A stretch of 6,686 bases of DNA, from positions 1-6,686 of the forward strand of contig JAUXDE010000091.1 of assembly GCA_030618495.1 (NCBI GenBank), written 5' to 3'. Positions 1 to 6,674 of this stretch are shown here, piece after piece; position 1 is the stretch's first letter, and each line of letters begins with the position of its first letter. Below the pieces are notes generated by a model, which saw only the letters and a list, made by a program, of their open reading frames with translations, did not search any database and was not told the DNA's origin. Both the position numbers and the translations under genes were made by a program. The stretch is from Clostridia bacterium. Lineage in GTDB: Bacteria > UBA6262 > WVXT01 > JAUXBS01.

Positions 1-1746
1 AAGGGCATTCTTGTTTTCATAAGAGAATTGACGGGTCCCGTTCTTTATTTCCGGGGAGAGTTCCACGCAGTCAATATACTTCAACGTTGAATGCTGTTCA
101 AGAGACCCGAGGGTCATCCCGCCACCGAGGCCTATAACGAGAGCTGATTCCGGTTCCGTATGAAGCAGTGCGGGAAGGTGTGCCAGCATATGGAACAACT
201 GCCTGTGATTGTACAGGTTTGTTGCCAGGCTCGTCCCGTTTATTGAGAGTTTCTTTATATTGTCCCTGTCCCTGGTTACCGTTACCGTTCCGCTCATTCC
301 TTCCTGGTAGAACAGCAATTCGAAGTCCCGGTAACGGTTATGCCTTACATAGTGGTCAGGCAGTTTGACCACGATGAACACCAGTGTCATTATGATAAGG
401 AACATGGAGGTTACTGCCTTGAAGGCCGGTTTCTTCCCGGGATGAAACAGGAGTACCATACCCCCGGCAAGCATAATCAGTATTGCCATGAAGGTTATCC
501 CGGGCCTTATCCCGAACAGCGGGATGAGGATGAACCCGCCCGCAAAAGACCCTATGATGGACCCCACAGCATTAATACCGTAAGCGCTTCCCACGTGACT
601 CCCGGTACTCCGGAGGCTTGAAGTATAAATCCTGCATACTATCGGGAAGGTCAGTCCCATTAAAGTGGTAGGTACGAGCATTATAAGCAATGAAATGATT
701 ATCTTGGCTGAAGTATGCCCCCACCACCCCATCCGGGTAATTCCTGATAACAGGTGGAAGAGCCCGGGTACCTTCCATGAAATCAGCAATGATGCCAGGA
801 AGCAGGTGATGCCTGCCAGAATTTCGATCAGCCCGAAAACCAGGAGTTTATCCTTTATCCTGTCCGCATACTTTGAGGATATATACCCGCCCAGCGAGAT
901 TCCCGCAATGAAGGTTGCCGCGACTATTGTGAAGGAGTATATACTGTTACCAAAATGAAAAATAAAAATCCTCGACCATATAACTTCGAGCGCCAGTGCC
1001 GCAAAACCCTCGATAAAGAAAACGGCGAGTACCAGCCATAAAAGACCGCCCTGTATCATTTCCACAGATGATTCGGCTTCAGGCGAATTAGAATCCGCAG
1101 GTTCCGGCCCGGCTGATTTTGCGAGCCGGTAGGCCGCATAGGCCAGGAGCAGGTTAACCATGGCTGTAACAAAAAGCGACAGCCTGATGCCGAGTATGTG
1201 TATGAGGAAGAATGCCGTAATGAAAGTCCCTATTACGGCGCCGAAGCTGTTTACGGAATACAACGAGCCTACGTTCCACCCTATTTCCTTCATCCGCTTA
1301 ACCGTGAATTTGCTTAGTACGGGCAGGGTACCGCCCATCAGGGCTGCCGGGATTATCATGATAAGGAAGGAAAGGATGAACCGTAACACTGTCAGGCTTG
1401 CAAACCCGGGGTGGAATGTCCTGTAAACGGCTATATGAATGCTGTTTACCGCCTGTATGAATACCGGGAATACCAGGGCATAGACACCTATCCCGAGTTC
1501 AAGTAGAGCCCAGATTATGAGGGGATTCTTCCGCCTGTCTACAAGTTTACCGAAGTAGAAACTGCCCGCGGCAAGGCCTGTCATGAAGGCGGTGAGCACA
1601 CAGCTTACCGCGAAAACGGTGACCCCGAATATCCTGCCGCAAATCCTCACCCATAGGGTTTGATAGACCAGGGCTGTAATCCCTGAGATGAAGAATAACA
1701 GCAATATTGTTTTTATAATTCTCTTATCCTGCGATTTAGTATTCAT
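1..1746 (-). CDS. Membrane-fused spermidine-synthase-like protein, partial (3' end beyond the window)
   Basis: This frame is open from an ATG at 1746 to the window edge, giving 582 codons with no stop, so the C-terminus is missing. About 13 hydrophobic membrane segments fill residues 10-462 as two similar halves. Each half opens with the family signature: SGITALVYQTLWVR at 21-34 and EGFAALALEVIWSR at 246-259. MGGTLPVLSKF (137-147) and a conserved SVNSFGAVIG-type helix (164-173) follow. A soluble spermidine-synthase-like domain starts near 475. It has an NGTSLATN...LFHMLAHLPALLH segment (503-529), the glycine-rich nucleotide loop VIGLGGGMTLG (537-547) and the SAM-type acidic strand DCVELSPEI (559-567). 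The catalytic Asp motif lies beyond the window, so activity cannot be judged. Automated tools may call the N-terminus an MFS transporter; the soluble domain argues for the fused synthase family. An in-frame TAA three codons upstream of the ATG, and the next Met only at residue 55, fix the start. It is a tandem paralog of the 915-aa gene 33 bp upstream. Confidence 0.9.
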   Translation of the reverse strand, partial: MNTKSQDKRIIKTILLLFFISGITALVYQTLWVRICGRIFGVTVFAVSCVLTAFMTGLAAGSFYFGKLVDRRKNPLIIWALLELGIGVYALVFPVFIQAVNSIHIAVYRTFHPGFASLTVLRFILSFLIMIIPAALMGGTLPVLSKFTVKRMKEIGWNVGSLYSVNSFGAVIGTFITAFFLIHILGIRLSLFVTAMVNLLLAYAAYRLAKSAGPEPADSNSPEAESSVEMIQGGLLWLVLAVFFIEGFAALALEVIWSRIFIFHFGNSIYSFTIVAATFIAGISLGGYISSKYADRIKDKLLVFGLIEILAGITCFLASLLISWKVPGLFHLLSGITRMGWWGHTSAKIIISLLIMLVPTTLMGLTFPIVCRIYTSSLRSTGSHVGSAYGINAVGSIIGSFAGGFILIPLFGIRPGITFMAILIMLAGGMVLLFHPGKKPAFKAVTSMFLIIMTLVFIVVKLPDHYVRHNRYRDFELLFYQEGMSGTVTVTRDRDNIKKLSINGTSLATNLYNHRQLFHMLAHLPALLHTEPESALVIGLGGGMTLGSLEQHSTLKYIDCVELSPEIKNGTRQFSYENKNAL

Positions 1747-1754
1747 GAAATATT

Positions 1755-1783
1755 ATGATATATTAAAGTAAATAAAAAGTCAA
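1755..1783 (-). promoter_or_regulatory. Promoter of the partial membrane synthase gene, predicted leaderless
   Basis: On the minus strand, TTGACT (1783-1778) is followed by exactly 17 bp and TATCAT (1760-1755). Only 8 nt then separate the -10 from the ATG at 1746, so transcription starting about 7 nt after the -10 leaves a leader of roughly 0-3 nt. No Shine-Dalgarno precedes the ATG. The -35 box contains the TGA stop codon (1782-1780) of the upstream gene, so the promoter is packed into the 33-bp gap. The same layout recurs in front of the upstream paralog. Confidence 0.7.
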
Positions 1784-4527
1784 TCGCGGTTATTAAGGAG
1801 GTATTGAAGCTTTTTCCTTGCTAATTCGAACCCGGGATTGAGTTCAAGGGATTTCTTATAGTTATTGATGGCCGTTTTGGTATCACCTTTTTTTTCATAA
1901 ACACTGGCGAGGTTGGAGAAGAACATAAAATGCGGCTGGATACGGATGACTTCGTTTATCTGCCTTATTGCCATGTCAAATTCATTGTTCGTGGTATAAA
2001 TATAAGCCAGGTTCATCCGGGCGTTTATATTGAAGGGGTCTCTTTCCACTGCCTTCAAGGCTGCCCTCTCATGAGCCGGTGATATTTCCATGAGGTATTT
2101 CGCGTCTTCATCCATTGGATTTATTGCAAGGGCCGATTCGAATTCATGAAAGGCTGCCCTTTCATCCCCGGAATCGAATAGTATCCTGCCTTTCTGCAGG
2201 TAATTCCCTGATTCAAGGTACATCCTGGCAATATTTTTTTCCTGCGGTTTTATCCCGGATACTAATGAAAGTACATCCTCACGCAGTAGGGATAGTTCAT
2301 TGACATCGGAAAAAGCCATGACGGAAATGTCCTTTGCCATCTTGGGCGCGGTGTAGTCTATGTAAGGGTGGTCATCGGTGTTCATCCCGGAGATCCCCCG
2401 CGCGTACTTTTTTATCCCGTCACTGCCCATGAGGAACCACCTTATCAGGGTAAAGGGGGATGTATACGTGGTTTCAGAAAGATCCTTGAGTATTCTATCG
2501 TTTAATGACAGCATTCGCTTTATTGAGTTGAAGTCAATTTTCAGTTCCTTCATCGTTCCCACCAGGCCCAGAAGCTTTCCGCTGCCGATAAGCCACAGAG
2601 ATGAGTCAGGGAATGTCCGGTAAAAACCGTTTAATATCATTTTCAGGTCTTTTTCCGGCACCTGCGCAAGGGAAATCCACTGGCAGAAGAGGCCGTTATT
2701 ATGCAGGCTGGCCCTGCAGGTTTCGTAATATTCCCTGGAATACAGGTTGGCTACATCCTTCCCCGGGTTTACCAGGTCGGAGATGATTATATCATATTTT
2801 TTTGCTGAACGGAGCAGCAGGTTCCTGCCGTCATCGATAATAATATTGAAAGAGGGATTATTAAGGATATTATAACTTTCATTACTGAAATAAGCCGCTC
2901 CTTCCACGATTTCAGGAGCGATTTCAGCGCAGTCTATGGGTAAGTCAAAGAGTGATACGGCTCCTGCCGTCATTCCCGCTCCGAGGCCCAGCAGGAATAC
3001 CGAACCGGGATTCCCATGCAGGAGGAGGGGAAGGTATCCCTGTATACGGGCATACCTGATGCTTCCCGGCAAAGAATTACCCACTTCCCAGTTATTGCTG
3101 AACATTCTGCTGGCAGTATCATTGAAGCCGCGGACGACTTTTACCGTGGTAACAGGGCCTTCCCTGTAATACAGTACTTTTTCACCCGGGAAGTGTTGTT
3201 TGAAGGACGGAACCAGTATTACCAGGATGAATCCCGCAGCCATCAGGGTAATTATTATTTTCCTGCTTTTACCCTCAAGGGATTTTACAATGAGCAGTAT
3301 AAGGGCGCATAGCAGGAGGTTAATAACCACAATGAGCTTCATTGAACCTGAAATACCCAGGGCAGGCACAAGAATGAAAGACGTTACTAAAGGGCCCAGG
3401 AGGCAGCCGATGGTATTGGCTGAGAAAATACTGCCCGTAACTTTACCAGCATTTCCGGAAGAACGCTCCAGTATTTTTACTACCAGGACGAACATTGCGC
3501 CCAGCAGGAATACCGGGATTATTACAGCTATAAACGATGCCAGGAACTTAAGCGTCATTGAAGCCGGCCACGAACCGGCGGAAGCGGAGAATTTCGCAAA
3601 TGCTTCCGGCAACTTTACCGTTAAAGGCAGTGAAATCATTACAAAAATTCCTGTCAGGGCCTCCGCCGCGCCCAGCAGGAACAGGGCGGATTGCCTGTTC
3701 ATTTTCCTGGTAATCCTTGCGCAGACAAAGCTCCCCAGGGATGAACCGAACAGGTATACCGTAAGGATAACGCTGAAGGAATAAGCTGTGCTCTTCCAGC
3801 TGAAAAGGAGAAGCCTCATCCACAACACTTCATAGGAAAGAGCAATAAAACCGGTAATGCCGTATACTATAAGTACCACCAGGTCTTCATTGTTCAAATG
3901 ATAGTGACTGGAAGGTTCCGGGGGAGAGGTTCCTATGGTTAATTTTCTGTCCATCATGATAAACGTTATTCCGATGAGCATATTAACGGCAGAAGCCGTT
4001 AAAAGGGTTGTTTTCAACCCGAGTATTTCAATAAAGAGGAATCCTGCCAGGAATGCGCCAATGACGGCTCCCAGGGTATTGACGGCATAGAGTATCCCGG
4101 TACTTCGGCTGCCCTCACCGGTATCCTTTATATTATAGAAGAACTTACTCAGGACCGGAAGGGTCCCTCCGATAATAGTGGCTGGTAGTAACAGCAGCAT
4201 AAAGCAGTAGGTGAATTTAAGGAAACCGGAAAGTTTAAAGGCAATATCCAGCAGGTTGTACGCCAGTATTGAAGAGAAGGCGATGGCTAATTGAATATAT
4301 CCGGAGGTTTTCAGAATCCTTCTATCGTATTTATCTATTAACCTGCCAAAAATAAATGAGCCTATTGCAAGGCCCGCCATATAGACTGCGAGTACCGTAC
4401 CGGTGGCATAGGAACTGGCGCCGATAACGGTGCTGAGCCTCCGTACCCAGACGAGTTCGTATATAAGGGCGGATATGCCAGACAGGAAGAATAGGAAAAA
4501 GATAAGTTTTTGATGGAATTCCTTCAT
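1780..4527 (-). CDS. Membrane-fused spermidine-synthase-like protein with C-terminal TPR repeats
   Basis: The product is 915 aa. Residues 8-440 hold about 13 membrane helices in two related halves, opening with SGISALIYELVWVRR (16-30) and TGFIALSYEVLWMR (225-238). IGGTLPVLSKFF lies at 119-130. A spermidine-synthase-like Rossmann domain follows (about 450-740): glycine loop LLGLGAGMTAG (512-522), acidic strand DCAEIAPEI (532-540), IDDGRNLLL (564-572) and YDIIISDLVNP (578-588). This last segment aligns with the aminopropyltransferase D-x-x-D-P motif; the first Asp (D584) is kept and the second is Asn (N587). NTDDHPYIDYTAPK (716-729) is typical of membrane-fused synthases. TPR-like repeats occupy about 767-807 and 836-910. 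I infer a soluble catalytic and TPR part on a membrane anchor. The substrate is unknown, and polyamine synthesis is only one option. An in-frame TTG at 4566 would add 13 residues, but it lies inside the -35 box, so the first ATG is preferred. The gene probably forms a unit with the paralog downstream. Confidence 0.9.
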   Translation of the reverse strand: MKEFHQKLIFFLFFLSGISALIYELVWVRRLSTVIGASSYATGTVLAVYMAGLAIGSFIFGRLIDKYDRRILKTSGYIQLAIAFSSILAYNLLDIAFKLSGFLKFTYCFMLLLLPATIIGGTLPVLSKFFYNIKDTGEGSRSTGILYAVNTLGAVIGAFLAGFLFIEILGLKTTLLTASAVNMLIGITFIMMDRKLTIGTSPPEPSSHYHLNNEDLVVLIVYGITGFIALSYEVLWMRLLLFSWKSTAYSFSVILTVYLFGSSLGSFVCARITRKMNRQSALFLLGAAEALTGIFVMISLPLTVKLPEAFAKFSASAGSWPASMTLKFLASFIAVIIPVFLLGAMFVLVVKILERSSGNAGKVTGSIFSANTIGCLLGPLVTSFILVPALGISGSMKLIVVINLLLCALILLIVKSLEGKSRKIIITLMAAGFILVILVPSFKQHFPGEKVLYYREGPVTTVKVVRGFNDTASRMFSNNWEVGNSLPGSIRYARIQGYLPLLLHGNPGSVFLLGLGAGMTAGAVSLFDLPIDCAEIAPEIVEGAAYFSNESYNILNNPSFNIIIDDGRNLLLRSAKKYDIIISDLVNPGKDVANLYSREYYETCRASLHNNGLFCQWISLAQVPEKDLKMILNGFYRTFPDSSLWLIGSGKLLGLVGTMKELKIDFNSIKRMLSLNDRILKDLSETTYTSPFTLIRWFLMGSDGIKKYARGISGMNTDDHPYIDYTAPKMAKDISVMAFSDVNELSLLREDVLSLVSGIKPQEKNIARMYLESGNYLQKGRILFDSGDERAAFHEFESALAINPMDEDAKYLMEISPAHERAALKAVERDPFNINARMNLAYIYTTNNEFDMAIRQINEVIRIQPHFMFFSNLASVYEKKGDTKTAINNYKKSLELNPGFELARKKLQYLLNNRD

Positions 4528-4537
4528 GATTAAGAGT

Positions 4538-4566
4538 ATGATATTATAATAAATTGTTCTTGTCAA
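4538..4566 (-). promoter_or_regulatory. Promoter of the 915-aa membrane synthase gene, predicted near-leaderless
   Basis: Minus strand: a perfect TTGACA (4566-4561), a 17-bp spacer and TATCAT (4543-4538), then 10 nt to the ATG at 4527. An alternative -10 with perfect TATAAT consensus lies at 4548-4543 but has no good -35. Either choice leaves a leader of about 3-10 nt. There is no Shine-Dalgarno before the ATG. The in-frame TTG at 4566 is the first three bases of the -35 box and so is not a likely start codon. Confidence 0.72.
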
Positions 4567-4604
4567 ATAAATTAGAATTACTAAAATTATTATGTGACAA
4601 AAGC

Positions 4605-4689
4605 TGGGGATATTTTATTGATAATTGCTTTTCAAAATGTATAATGAATTAATAAAATGATTCATCAGATGGTAAAATAAATTACTTTA
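4605..4689. repeat. Block A, left copy: AT-rich direct repeat with 6247-6326
   Basis: This stretch aligns with 6247-6326 through a shared TGGGGAT start, TTTTCAA, TAATGAAT, TCATCAG and a perfect 15-bp match ending the block (4675-4689 with 6312-6326, AAATAAATTACTTTA). A few short gaps are needed, and identity is clearly lower than in block B. I see no convincing coding frame. Here the block runs directly into block B at the ATGAGCC of 4689. Confidence 0.7.
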
Positions 4690-4843
4690 TGAGCCTTGTA
4701 AGAAGTTCTCTGCGGTTGGCTTGAAAGTAACACCAAGGACAATAAGAAAAGAACAGGATGCAGAGATAAGGAAAATAGCAGAGAAAACAGGCAGGCCAAT
4801 AAGTGAAATAGTCAGAGACGCTGTTGAAGGATTTAGACAATGA
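4689..4843 (+). repeat. Block B, left copy: 155-bp direct repeat with 6520-6674
   Basis: The 155 bp align without a gap to 6520-6674. My hand count gives 17 mismatches, about 89% identity. Both copies begin at ATGAGCC and end at a CAATGA stop. About half of the differences are synonymous in the ribbon-helix-helix frame, so the repeat diverged as coding sequence rather than as neutral DNA. Confidence 0.88.
4721..4843 (+). CDS. Ribbon-helix-helix (CopG/antitoxin-like) small protein or remnant
   Basis: The frame encodes a 40-residue ribbon-helix-helix domain: a short strand (KVTPRTI), a first helix (RKEQDAEIRKIAEKTG) and a second helix (RPISEIVRDAVEGFRQ). This matches the whole length of a minimal CopG/MetJ-type DNA-binding domain, as in type II antitoxins, which bind operators as dimers. 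The only usual start codon in the open frame is the TTG at 4721. Clear homology with the second copy extends upstream to 4691 (EPCKKFSAVGL), so the true start may be lost or lie elsewhere. The TTG overlaps the TGA (TTGA) of an 11-codon ORF that begins at the ATG of 4689. That overlap could mean translational coupling or simply a frameshifted 5' end. I see no Shine-Dalgarno. It is probably DNA-binding if expressed. No toxin gene follows directly; the next gene is the DUF4143 ATPase. Confidence 0.5.
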   Translation: MKVTPRTIRKEQDAEIRKIAEKTGRPISEIVRDAVEGFRQ

Positions 4844-4880
4844 TGCCACTTTAGGGGACACATGAACAGTTCTTTAACAA

Positions 4881-4911
4881 GACATATATGCTATGTGATA
4901 GCAAATATGTC
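4881..4911. promoter_or_regulatory. 31-bp near-perfect palindrome abutting the -35 box: candidate operator
   Basis: Arms 4881-4894 (GACATATATGCTAT) and 4898-4911 (ATAGCAAATATGTC) are complementary at 13 of 14 positions around a GTG centre. The right arm ends one base before the TTGACA -35 of the ATPase gene. The stem is AT-rich and has no T-run, so it is not a typical terminator. The 9-mer TATATGCTA in the left arm (4885-4893) recurs 43 bp downstream (4928-4936), overlapping the -10. That is about four helical turns, as expected for protein sites on one DNA face. The cognate regulator is unknown; the neighbouring RHH protein is a candidate by position only. Confidence 0.6.
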
Positions 4912-4940
4912 TTGACAATTTATTGTTTATATGCTAATAT
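4912..4940 (+). promoter_or_regulatory. Promoter of the DUF4143 ATPase gene (extended -10)
   Basis: A perfect TTGACA (4912-4917), a 17-bp spacer and TAATAT (4935-4940), preceded by TGC (4932-4934), form an extended -10. The expected start near 4947 leaves a leader of about 45 nt with a good Shine-Dalgarno. This differs from the two leaderless-type promoters on the other strand. Confidence 0.8.
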
Positions 4941-4980
4941 ATAGGTGAAATTTATCGATTGTATTTATATTGAATAAGCA

Positions 4981-4988
4981 AGGAGGGG
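4981..4988 (+). promoter_or_regulatory. Strong ribosome binding site of the ATPase gene
   Basis: AGGAGGGG ends 3 nt before the ATG at 4992 (5 nt if AGGAGG is the core). It fixes the start codon. It also shows that the host uses canonical Shine-Dalgarno initiation, which makes its absence from the two membrane genes notable. Confidence 0.85.
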
Positions 4989-4991
4989 AAG

Positions 4992-6197
4992 ATGTATATT
5001 AACAGAGATATAGAGAATGTAATCATTAAAGCATTCAAAGGATTTCCTGCTGTCGTAGTTACAGGGCCAAGGCAGTCGGGTAAATCCACAATTTTAAAGA
5101 AAATATTCGCGAAAACACATAAATATATCACTTTTGATGATCCTCTCATTCGTGAGCGGGCAATTTCTGATCCGAAACTATTTATTAACACTATGGGTGA
5201 ATATGTAATCTATGATGAGATACAATACGTGCCACAGTTGATTTCCTATATTAAAATGGAAATTGACAGGAAACCTAATGTAAATGGCAGGTTTATCATA
5301 ACAGGTTCACAGCAGTTTAATCTTATAAAAAATCTTGGTGATTCACTTGCGGGAAGAGTCGCAATATTTGAATTGCTGCCTTTTAGTTATAATGAAATTA
5401 AAAAAATAAAGTCATTAAAGAAAGTTACTTCTAAAACTAAGGATATATTTGTCCATTCGTGTCTCAGAGGGTCTTATCCGCAAATAAATGTCCGGAAATC
5501 AATAGATGTTAATCAATGGTTTTCGGGATATTTTCAGACATATCTTGAAAGGGATATAAAAAATATTTACGACATAGGTAATCTAAGGGATTTTCAAAGG
5601 TTTATGCAACTGCTGGCTTCAAGATGTTCACAGTTATTGTCTTTAAGCGCATTGTCAGCCGACCTCGGAATTGCGGTAAATACGGTTAAACGATGGATTT
5701 CTATCCTTGAAGCATGCCGTATCATTTATCTGCTAAATCCATATTATAATAATTTAGGCAAACGTATAACGAAGTCACCAAAGGTTTATTTCATAGATAG
5801 CGGGATTGTATGTTATTTGACAGGAATTACAAATGAGAATATTTTATTGAACGGTCCATTATCCGGACCTCTGTTTGAAAACTATTGTATCCAGGAAACG
5901 GTTAAACAAATAATTAATAACAATAAGAATTACAGGCTGTATTATATGAGGACGCATAATAATATGGAGATTGATTTAATAGTCACAAAAGGGATGGACT
6001 TATTCCCTTGTGAGATAAAATTAAGCATGACTCTGGGGTTAAAAGATGCCCGGAATATAATTCGCATGAAAAAAACATTTTGTGATTTAAATATTAAAAC
6101 AGGCAGGATTATTTCACTGGCAGATGAAACATATGAAATTAATAAGGATGTGTCAACAATAAAGTTTTCTGAATATATTAAATGGCTTGGTAAGTAA
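4992..6197 (+). CDS. AAA+ ATPase with C-terminal DUF4143 domain
   Basis: The 401-aa length is normal for the AAA_14/DUF4143 family. Walker A is GPRQSGKS (25-32), Walker B is VIYDEIQ (72-78), and FIITGSQQ (101-108) is the sensor-1 strand. SLAGRVAIFELLPFSYNEI (118-136) and YLERDI (184-189) are family signatures. A winged-helix-like helical segment spans about 205-245. The C-terminal domain carries FENYC (295-299), MEIDLIV (325-331) and CEIKLS (340-345). The E-x-D...E-x-K spacing resembles a PD-(D/E)XK nuclease core, so the acidic residues needed for metal binding appear intact (E326, D328, E341, K343). The family is abundant in bacteria and archaea, but its biological role is not settled; I do not assign a substrate. 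The coding sequence is much more AT-rich than the membrane genes to the left (sampled lines 23-45% GC). It is flanked by direct repeats and has its own promoter, so it looks like a self-contained accessory cassette. No clear terminator follows. Confidence 0.92.
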   Translation: MYINRDIENVIIKAFKGFPAVVVTGPRQSGKSTILKKIFAKTHKYITFDDPLIRERAISDPKLFINTMGEYVIYDEIQYVPQLISYIKMEIDRKPNVNGRFIITGSQQFNLIKNLGDSLAGRVAIFELLPFSYNEIKKIKSLKKVTSKTKDIFVHSCLRGSYPQINVRKSIDVNQWFSGYFQTYLERDIKNIYDIGNLRDFQRFMQLLASRCSQLLSLSALSADLGIAVNTVKRWISILEACRIIYLLNPYYNNLGKRITKSPKVYFIDSGIVCYLTGITNENILLNGPLSGPLFENYCIQETVKQIINNNKNYRLYYMRTHNNMEIDLIVTKGMDLFPCEIKLSMTLGLKDARNIIRMKKTFCDLNIKTGRIISLADETYEINKDVSTIKFSEYIKWLGK

Positions 6198-6370
6198 CAA
6201 ATTTGTTGTGCCCCTGTGTTAATATTTAATCTTCAATTGTAATAATTGGGGATTATTATGACAATTAATTTTCAACGTAATGAATCAATACAAATAACTC
6301 ATCAGCTGAGGAAATAAATTACTTTAGTGGCAATTCTGCCAAATCTTTAAATGGCTGAAAATCCAAGGCG
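6198..6370. other. Intergenic region after the ATPase gene, without a gene
   Basis: It holds a 12-bp perfect palindrome AACAAATTTGTT (6196-6207) overlapping the ATPase stop codon. A TGTGCCCCTGTG stretch and block A of the flanking repeat follow. No GC-rich stem with a T-run is visible, so I cannot place a terminator. A 19-codon ORF from the ATG at 6258 exists but has no support as a gene. Confidence 0.5.
6247..6326. repeat. Block A, right copy: AT-rich direct repeat with 4605-4689
   Basis: This is the counterpart of the AT-rich block left of the ATPase gene, ending in the same 15-bp match. Here it does not run into block B. About 194 bp of unrelated sequence, including a DUF1016 fragment, follows before block B resumes. 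Confidence 0.7.
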
Positions 6371-6523
6371 ATGTCTGGTAAATTCGAGAAAGGGCAGACA
6401 CTGTCTGCTAAATTTGAATCAATGCTATCCTGGTCACATTACTGCGAGTTATTGAAGGTAGAAGAAAAACTTTCCCGCTCTTTTTACGAAAAAGAAGCAA
6501 TTCACAATAAATGGTCGGGATGA
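6371..6523 (+). pseudogene. Truncated DUF1016 (YhcG N-terminal domain) fragment
   Basis: The 50-codon ORF keeps the most conserved core of DUF1016/YhcG proteins: QTLSAKF (9-15), SWSHYCELL (20-28) and RSFYEKEAIHNKWS (36-49). In full-length members this is a helical N-terminal domain followed by a PD-(D/E)XK nuclease domain. They are often several hundred residues long and occur in defence or accessory islands. Here everything before QTLSAKF and everything after NKWS is missing. The ORF ends one codon later, exactly where block B begins. A stop lies 15 nt before the ATG, and I see no Shine-Dalgarno. I infer a deletion remnant without function. Confidence 0.75.
6372..6431 (+). repeat. 30-bp partial tandem duplication inside the DUF1016 fragment
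   Basis: TGTCTGGTAAATTCGA (6372-6387) recurs 30 bp later as TGTCTGCTAAATTTGA (6402-6417), with 2 mismatches in 16. The offset is 10 codons, so SGKFE is repeated as SAKFE in frame. The second halves of the units do not match well. The duplication may be part of how the truncated 5' end was formed. Confidence 0.55.
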
Positions 6524-6674
6524 GCCTTTTAAGAAATATTCTCCGGTCGGCTTAAAGGTAACACTAAGGACAATAAGAAAAGAGCAGGATGCAGAGATAA
6601 GGAAAACAGCAGAAAAAACAGGCAGGCCAATAAGTGAAATTGTCAGAGAAGCGGTTGAAAGATTTATACAATGA
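6520..6674 (+). repeat. Block B, right copy: 155-bp direct repeat with 4689-4843
   Basis: Gap-free counterpart of 4689-4843 at about 89% identity (hand count). It starts at ATGAGCC immediately after the DUF1016 fragment's NKWS codons and ends at the CAATGA stop, 12 bp before the window edge. Confidence 0.88.
6522..6674 (+). pseudogene. Second ribbon-helix-helix (CopG/antitoxin-like) coding copy, no start codon
   Basis: The frame reads EPFKKYSPVGL, then the strand VTLRTI, helix RKEQDAEIRKTAEKTG and helix RPISEIVREAVERFIQ, then TGA. This is the same fold as the copy at 4721-4843. The helix residues match the ribbon-helix-helix consensus better here (EAVERF instead of DAVEGF). The frame is open back to a TAG at 6459 but holds no ATG, GTG or TTG; the TTG of the other copy is TTA here. 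The ATG at 6520 is out of frame and ends after 11 codons at TAA. Either the gene lost its start or a frameshift separates the ATG from the body. I call it a remnant, although the domain itself is undamaged. Confidence 0.6.

Follow-up and report, generated by a model that had tools for sequence, protein, structure and literature searches.

The DNA analysed here (the window, 6,686 nucleotides (nt) in length) is one complete contig, JAUXDE010000091.1, of a metagenome-assembled genome (1.69 Mb, 98% complete) of a Clostridia bacterium of the genus JAUXBS01. Its right-hand part encodes a DUF4143 ATPase between two copies of a direct repeat composed of blocks A and B, an arrangement that we are inclined to read as the scar left when the gene was gained. 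The features of this region are as follows.

4605-4689, plus strand: block A, left copy; non-coding, the upstream part of the duplicated segment, with a promoter-like TTGATA-16-TATAAT at 4618-4645
4689-4843, plus strand: block B, left copy; 3′ end of an RHH gene, terminating at TGA (Pfam RHH_1, E 1.2e-5)
4844-4991, plus strand: leader of the ATPase gene and left end of the putatively captured unit, as read from the sequence; contains the 16-mer AAATATGTCTTGACAA
4878-4914, plus strand: palindrome CAAGACATATATGCTATgtgATAGCAAATATGTCTTG, which enters the -35 box of a promoter at 4912-4940; likely operator
4992-6197, plus strand: DUF4143 gene, 401 amino acids; AAA_14, a helical/winged region and a PD-(D/E)XK-type C-terminal domain
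6247-6326, plus strand: block A, right copy, as delimited by the repeat alignment
6371-6520, plus strand: fragment of a DUF1016 N-terminal domain (Pfam DUF1016_N, E 6.9e-10, profile positions 83-122 of 137)
6520-6674, plus strand: block B, right copy; 3′ end of an RHH gene with no ATG, GTG or TTG start, terminating at TGA
4574/4575, no strand: breakpoint of homology with contig G001:C163 of a congener, in which everything rightward is missing

The initial annotation had described direct repeats that bracket the ATPase gene in the same order and orientation, and this is what we found. Block B (155 nt) is 89% identical between its two copies (E 1.6e-53), and block A (about 80 nt) is 77% identical with small gaps (E 1.6e-8; alignment score of 84.5, as compared to a maximum of 45.5 among 500 shuffles). 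The blocks were also thought to be arranged alike on both sides. This is true of their order, but only the left pair abuts; the right pair is 193 nt apart (6327-6519), with the DUF1016_N fragment inside. The reading frame of this fragment, which is of the YhcG type, stops exactly where right block B starts. The contig ends 12 nt past right block B, and the right side of the window is thus complicated both by the fragment and by the contig end. Block B corresponds to the last 51 codons of an RHH (CopG/RHH_1) protein, and both copies stop exactly at its stop codon. The sole possible in-frame start in the left copy is a TTG at 4721. The low GC reported earlier for the ATPase gene was confirmed (30-35% in the repeat and ATPase region, and 31-35% between the A-B pairs, vs 45-50% leftward), and the gene is foreign-looking.

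The DUF4143 gene is the single gene inside the A-B pairs. Its product has AAA_14 (E 7.5e-29) and DUF4143 (E 1.3e-46) domains, the only Pfam matches above cut-off, and matches the PADLOC profile PDC-S01 (7.5e-101), a combination that we take to be COG1373. Walker A and Walker B are preserved, and E326, D328, E341 and K343 of a PD-(D/E)XK-type site in the C-terminal half fall in invariant or near-invariant alignment columns; the protein does not differ from PDC-S01 in these respects. The structure was predicted with confidence (pLDDT 90). Its ATPase part resembles the archaeal AAA+/STAND ATPase 2qen (Z 16.3, root-mean-square deviation 3.6 Å over 253 residues), and for the C-terminal half Foldseek gave weak matches to Cdn1 and VC1899. 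The protein is probably an ATP-dependent nuclease and a candidate for phage defence. PDC-S01 has been reported to rank fourth in abundance among the defence (candidate) systems of prokaryotes, and experimental validation is pending for most such candidates (PMC12988326). We identified no integrase, RNA families or tRNAs in the window, and no pair of terminal inverted repeats at the unit ends (4844 and 6246). A DDE-type insertion sequence (IS) was rejected on the lack of such repeats and on the domain content of the unit's lone gene.

Comparison with the congener provides a view of the locus without the gene. The neighbouring gene, which encodes a fused transporter / spermidine-synthase-like / TPR protein, is 83% identical there, and the orthologous site (88% DNA identity, with homology ending at 4574) lacks A, B and the ATPase gene; a transposase gene is located nearby, upstream. 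Thus, the two-copy layout is not ancestral. The initial annotation would have abandoned its reading if the blocks occurred nowhere else and relatives shared the layout. The first is the case within the 1.69 Mb genome, where no further copy of A or B was found, whereas the second is contradicted by the congener. Other copies of the RHH sequence were sought in a patterned scan of 84,980 genomes and in six genomes of the phylum, and only two partial ones, both in one congener (JAUXBS01), were found. They lie on a 5 kb contig (L046, G001:C8), both ends of which fall inside RHH copies, which suggests that there are further, unassembled RHH copies. One copy on this contig adjoins the C-terminal fragment of a different, truncated DUF4143 gene, and IS21-type genes lie between the copies. 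Viral contigs contained no match for the RHH sequence, nor for the ATPase of another locus, L161.

Two further DUF4143 genes of the genus also lie between direct repeats, of sequence unrelated to A-B. On contig C165 of the same genome (L049, G000:C165), a local repeat at 1788-1879, 2733-2846 and 4261-4404 separates a BrnT/BrnA-like pair, a DUF4143 gene and a spermidine-synthase-like gene, and its right copy provides the final codons of the DUF4143 gene. This repeat occurs nowhere else in the genome.

Because these genes are also flanked by repeats, we tested the flanks of DUF4143 genes family-wide, counting repeats that scored 40 bits or more within 700 nt on either side, with the other open reading frames (ORFs) of the same loci as controls. 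Flanking direct repeats were found at 16 of 86 DUF4143 genes and 8 of 479 control ORFs in a first set, and at 9 of 95 and 9 of 379, respectively, in a second, independent set (1 of 178 for size-matched controls, p=4e-4). A repeat was considered private if it had exactly two copies in the locus and was not of low complexity, a filter applied to the controls too. With both sets combined, private direct repeats flank 17 of 181 DUF4143 genes, compared with 4 of 858 controls (p=2e-10) and 3 of 438 size-matched controls (p=2e-7). Such scars are about twenty times commoner at DUF4143 genes than at control genes, and the private pairs at DUF4143 genes are mostly direct (17 direct vs 3 inverted). Dropped as simple or dispersed repeats were L137 (twice), L178, L186 and the first gene of L271; L125, L139 and L233 were excluded from the private count by copy number.

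The repeat sequence is different at every locus. Most coding repeats are the ends of neighbouring genes (named from their translated sequences), with one copy in a longer gene and the other copy truncated. The gene ends involved are:

Same-strand upstream 3′ ends: glycosyltransferase (L161), SDR (L164), Sir2-like (L125)
Convergent downstream 3′ ends: CcmB-like (L160), long ORFs (L111, L216)
Downstream 5′ end: amidohydrolase (L201)

At L201, whose DUF4143 protein is the second closest relative found for that of the window (55%), the left copy retains the promoter and has a premature stop. The right copy is the intact amidohydrolase gene, which begins 8 nt past the DUF4143 stop codon. The private pair at L170 looks like the remnant of a tandem DUF4143 copy, and the pair at L241 may be two neighbouring paralogues. 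The earlier proposal that a duplication captured the ATPase gene is thus supported both by the congener site and by equivalent scars, made of other gene ends, at DUF4143 genes elsewhere.

The initial annotation also considered an array in which RHH-coding repeats separate accessory genes, and had looked to many further A-B copies as support. In such an array, integron-like or other, A-B would be the recombination site between cassettes. The C165 repeat is in keeping with this, given that it separates several genes in the same genome. However, that repeat is also local and unrelated to A-B, A and B themselves are found nowhere else in the genome, the coding repeats are gene ends that differ from locus to locus, and the window has no integrase. 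RHH genes are not enriched beside DUF4143 genes (adjoining 2 of 181 vs 2 of 438 controls), the only other RHH copies found in the genomes searched are the two partial ones of the congener, and the right RHH copy has no start. We consider an array extremely improbable. A type II toxin-antitoxin module with RHH as the conserved partner of DUF4143 was rejected on the same adjacency count.

The divergence of the repeat copies was tested in fixed reading frames, with the null that one copy was neutral throughout. Block B of the window has a ratio of nonsynonymous to synonymous changes (dN/dS) of 0.25 (P=0.002 for one copy being neutral since the event). There are likewise too few nonsynonymous changes for one neutral copy at L161 (P=0.011), L164 (P=0.0002), L201 (P=0.0006) and L241 (P=9e-6). 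Because the differences at these five informative coding loci are mostly synonymous, we infer that both copies were functional alleles while they diverged and that one was truncated only later, as would be expected had one copy arrived with the donor. Plasmids of Pseudomonas allow a three-way comparison, as the segment that is double around a DUF4143 gene in pHN21SC3150TT-1 is single in pWTJH2. The D copy is 86% identical to the empty site and the U copy 74%, and U and D are 73% identical to each other. The flanking copies are not sisters, and L196 was rejected as a simple target duplication on this basis. At the five coding loci, the window included, the synonymous bias tends to argue against copies that were identical at insertion.

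These data bear on two alternatives. In a target-site duplication proper, insertion would occur at breaks staggered by about 30-250 nt, and their filling-in would give two identical copies that later diverge. The geometry and the variable repeat length agree with this, and long, variable duplications (about 100 bp) are reported for restriction-modification (RM) systems (PMC3874152; PMC3031569). Nevertheless, it appears unlikely, as the five coding cases hold too few nonsynonymous differences for one neutral copy and, on the plasmid, one flanking copy resembles the empty site more closely than it does its partner. The second alternative is a tandem module, in which an RHH-DUF4143 regulator or antitoxin unit was duplicated and the right A-B opens a second unit, with its ATPase gene beyond the contig end. 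In its favour, both B copies show purifying selection, an RHH copy of the congener does follow a different DUF4143 fragment, and the contig stops just past right block B. We regard this as quite unlikely, however, because RHH is not a general neighbour of DUF4143, right block B lacks a start codon, the right A-B is split by the DUF1016 fragment, and equivalent scars elsewhere are built from unrelated genes.

The extent of the moving unit can be estimated from similar DUF4143 genes in differing contexts (pairs L281/L282, L253/L257 and L268/L270), in which shared DNA is confined to the stretch between about -60 and the stop codon. L281 and L282 are 92.5% identical and shared from -46 to +7. Perfect inverted repeats with arms of at least 9 lie just upstream of 54 of 181 DUF4143 genes, as compared to 54 of 858 controls (p=8e-17). 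The window palindrome (DNA fold z of -6.7, matched by 0 of 200 shuffles) has counterparts of the same design upstream of the relatives at L200 and L201. We read it as a likely operator. The 16-mer of the window leader has an exact match only at another DUF4143 gene of the same genome, G000:C62.

Of the explanations considered, we find it somewhat probable that the A-B repeats are the scar of gaining a single-gene unit, consisting of a palindromic promoter and the DUF4143 gene, by homology at the end of an RHH gene. Donor DNA carrying an RHH gene end and the adjoining DUF4143 gene would enter the cell and become integrated through homologous recombination with the end of the resident RHH gene. 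This could occur via circularisation of the fragment followed by a single crossover, or with just one side joined through homology and the opposite side joined illegitimately. Of the two flanks, one would then represent the donor allele and one the resident allele of the gene end; the route taken, and which flank came from the donor, can be proposed only provisionally. In E. coli, linear DNA that is homologous to the target at one end was found mostly to circularise and then to integrate by a single crossover, and the integrants have 109-950 bp of the target gene end duplicated (PMC3240628). The A-B repeats have this geometry. The DUF4143 protein would be the selected cargo and not the engine of integration. 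That the protein, with its AAA+/STAND-like ATPase and PD-(D/E)XK parts, instead drives its own integration by cutting near gene ends, with repair leaving the ends duplicated, seems very unlikely. If true, it would be a one-gene mobile element disguised as a very common prokaryotic candidate defence gene, its 5′ edge marked by the palindrome.

Several observations weigh against gain by homology at gene ends or limit the case for it. More than 85% of DUF4143 genes have no scar, and the most recently moved units found (L281/L282) lack long flanking repeats; duplication is therefore not obligatory. The controls are ordinary neighbour genes and not other mobile families, and the enrichment may reflect frequent gain generally. 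The private pairs at L115, L150, L260, L274 and the second gene of L271 are non-coding, palindromic or unclear, and on their own lend no support to duplicated gene ends. Both B copies of the window look historically functional, as they would in a tandem module. Lastly, an empty site with one A-B copy and no ATPase gene, which had been suggested as a check, was not found for the window locus, the congener being without A and B altogether.

With these reservations, the DUF4143 family (PDC-S01) would be a new cargo for a known type of insertion with long target duplication. Our literature search found no description of insertion scars for DUF4143. RM genes inserted with long, variable target duplication are known (Nobusato 2000; Furuta 2010, as cited in PMC3031569 and PMC3874152). 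As in RM systems, a single defence-type nuclease unit lies between long, variable, locus-specific direct repeats. In contrast to them, the cargo is a lone ATPase-nuclease gene without a methylase, the flanking copies are often diverged alleles, and the coding repeats are mostly gene 3′ ends. Some prophages and other elements rebuild the gene that they enter by supplying a new 3′ end, as e14 does in icd. The 3′ end is doubled there too, with mostly synonymous divergence, but the DUF4143 unit has no recombinase and its target differs at each locus. Homology-facilitated illegitimate recombination has been proposed for arrays of type VI secretion system (T6SS) effector-immunity (orphan) genes in Vibrio (PMC5361080). 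Both there and in single crossover of linear DNA (PMC3240628), one homologous end anchors the incoming DNA, and gene ends are duplicated or displaced, as at DUF4143 genes. The Vibrio arrays have an effector-immunity pair and a conserved upstream anchor, whereas DUF4143 units have one candidate defence gene and arbitrary gene-end anchors. The reproducible scar provides a handle on the entry of single defence genes without known mobile elements. With it, insertions can be dated and oriented, and whether the gene moves itself or is gained passively can be put to a direct test.

Other DUF4143 loci have features of their own. At L139 (minus strand, 7864-8281 in reverse-complement coordinates), a small HEPN-like gene beside the DUF4143 gene is within a 258 nt direct repeat of 87% identity. 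On the Emticicia plasmid pEMTOL02 (L190, 2238-5697), the araD and araA genes of an arabinose operon are separated by the DUF4143 gene, which is encoded on the other strand. On pTRESU01 of Treponema succinifaciens (L192, about 3001-4218), a 34 nt palindromic sequence flanks the DUF4143 gene on both sides. In the genome of the window, the end of G000:C62 and the start of G000:C158 have 19 nt in common within a DUF4143 gene, a single gene that was split by the assembly. TTTAGGGGACACATGAAC was considered as a REP-type repeat and rejected, as it had just one weak second match. The remainder of the window (1-1746 and 1780-4566, minus strand) encodes the fused transporter / spermidine-synthase-like / TPR genes, which have several long relatives in the same genome and in the congener.

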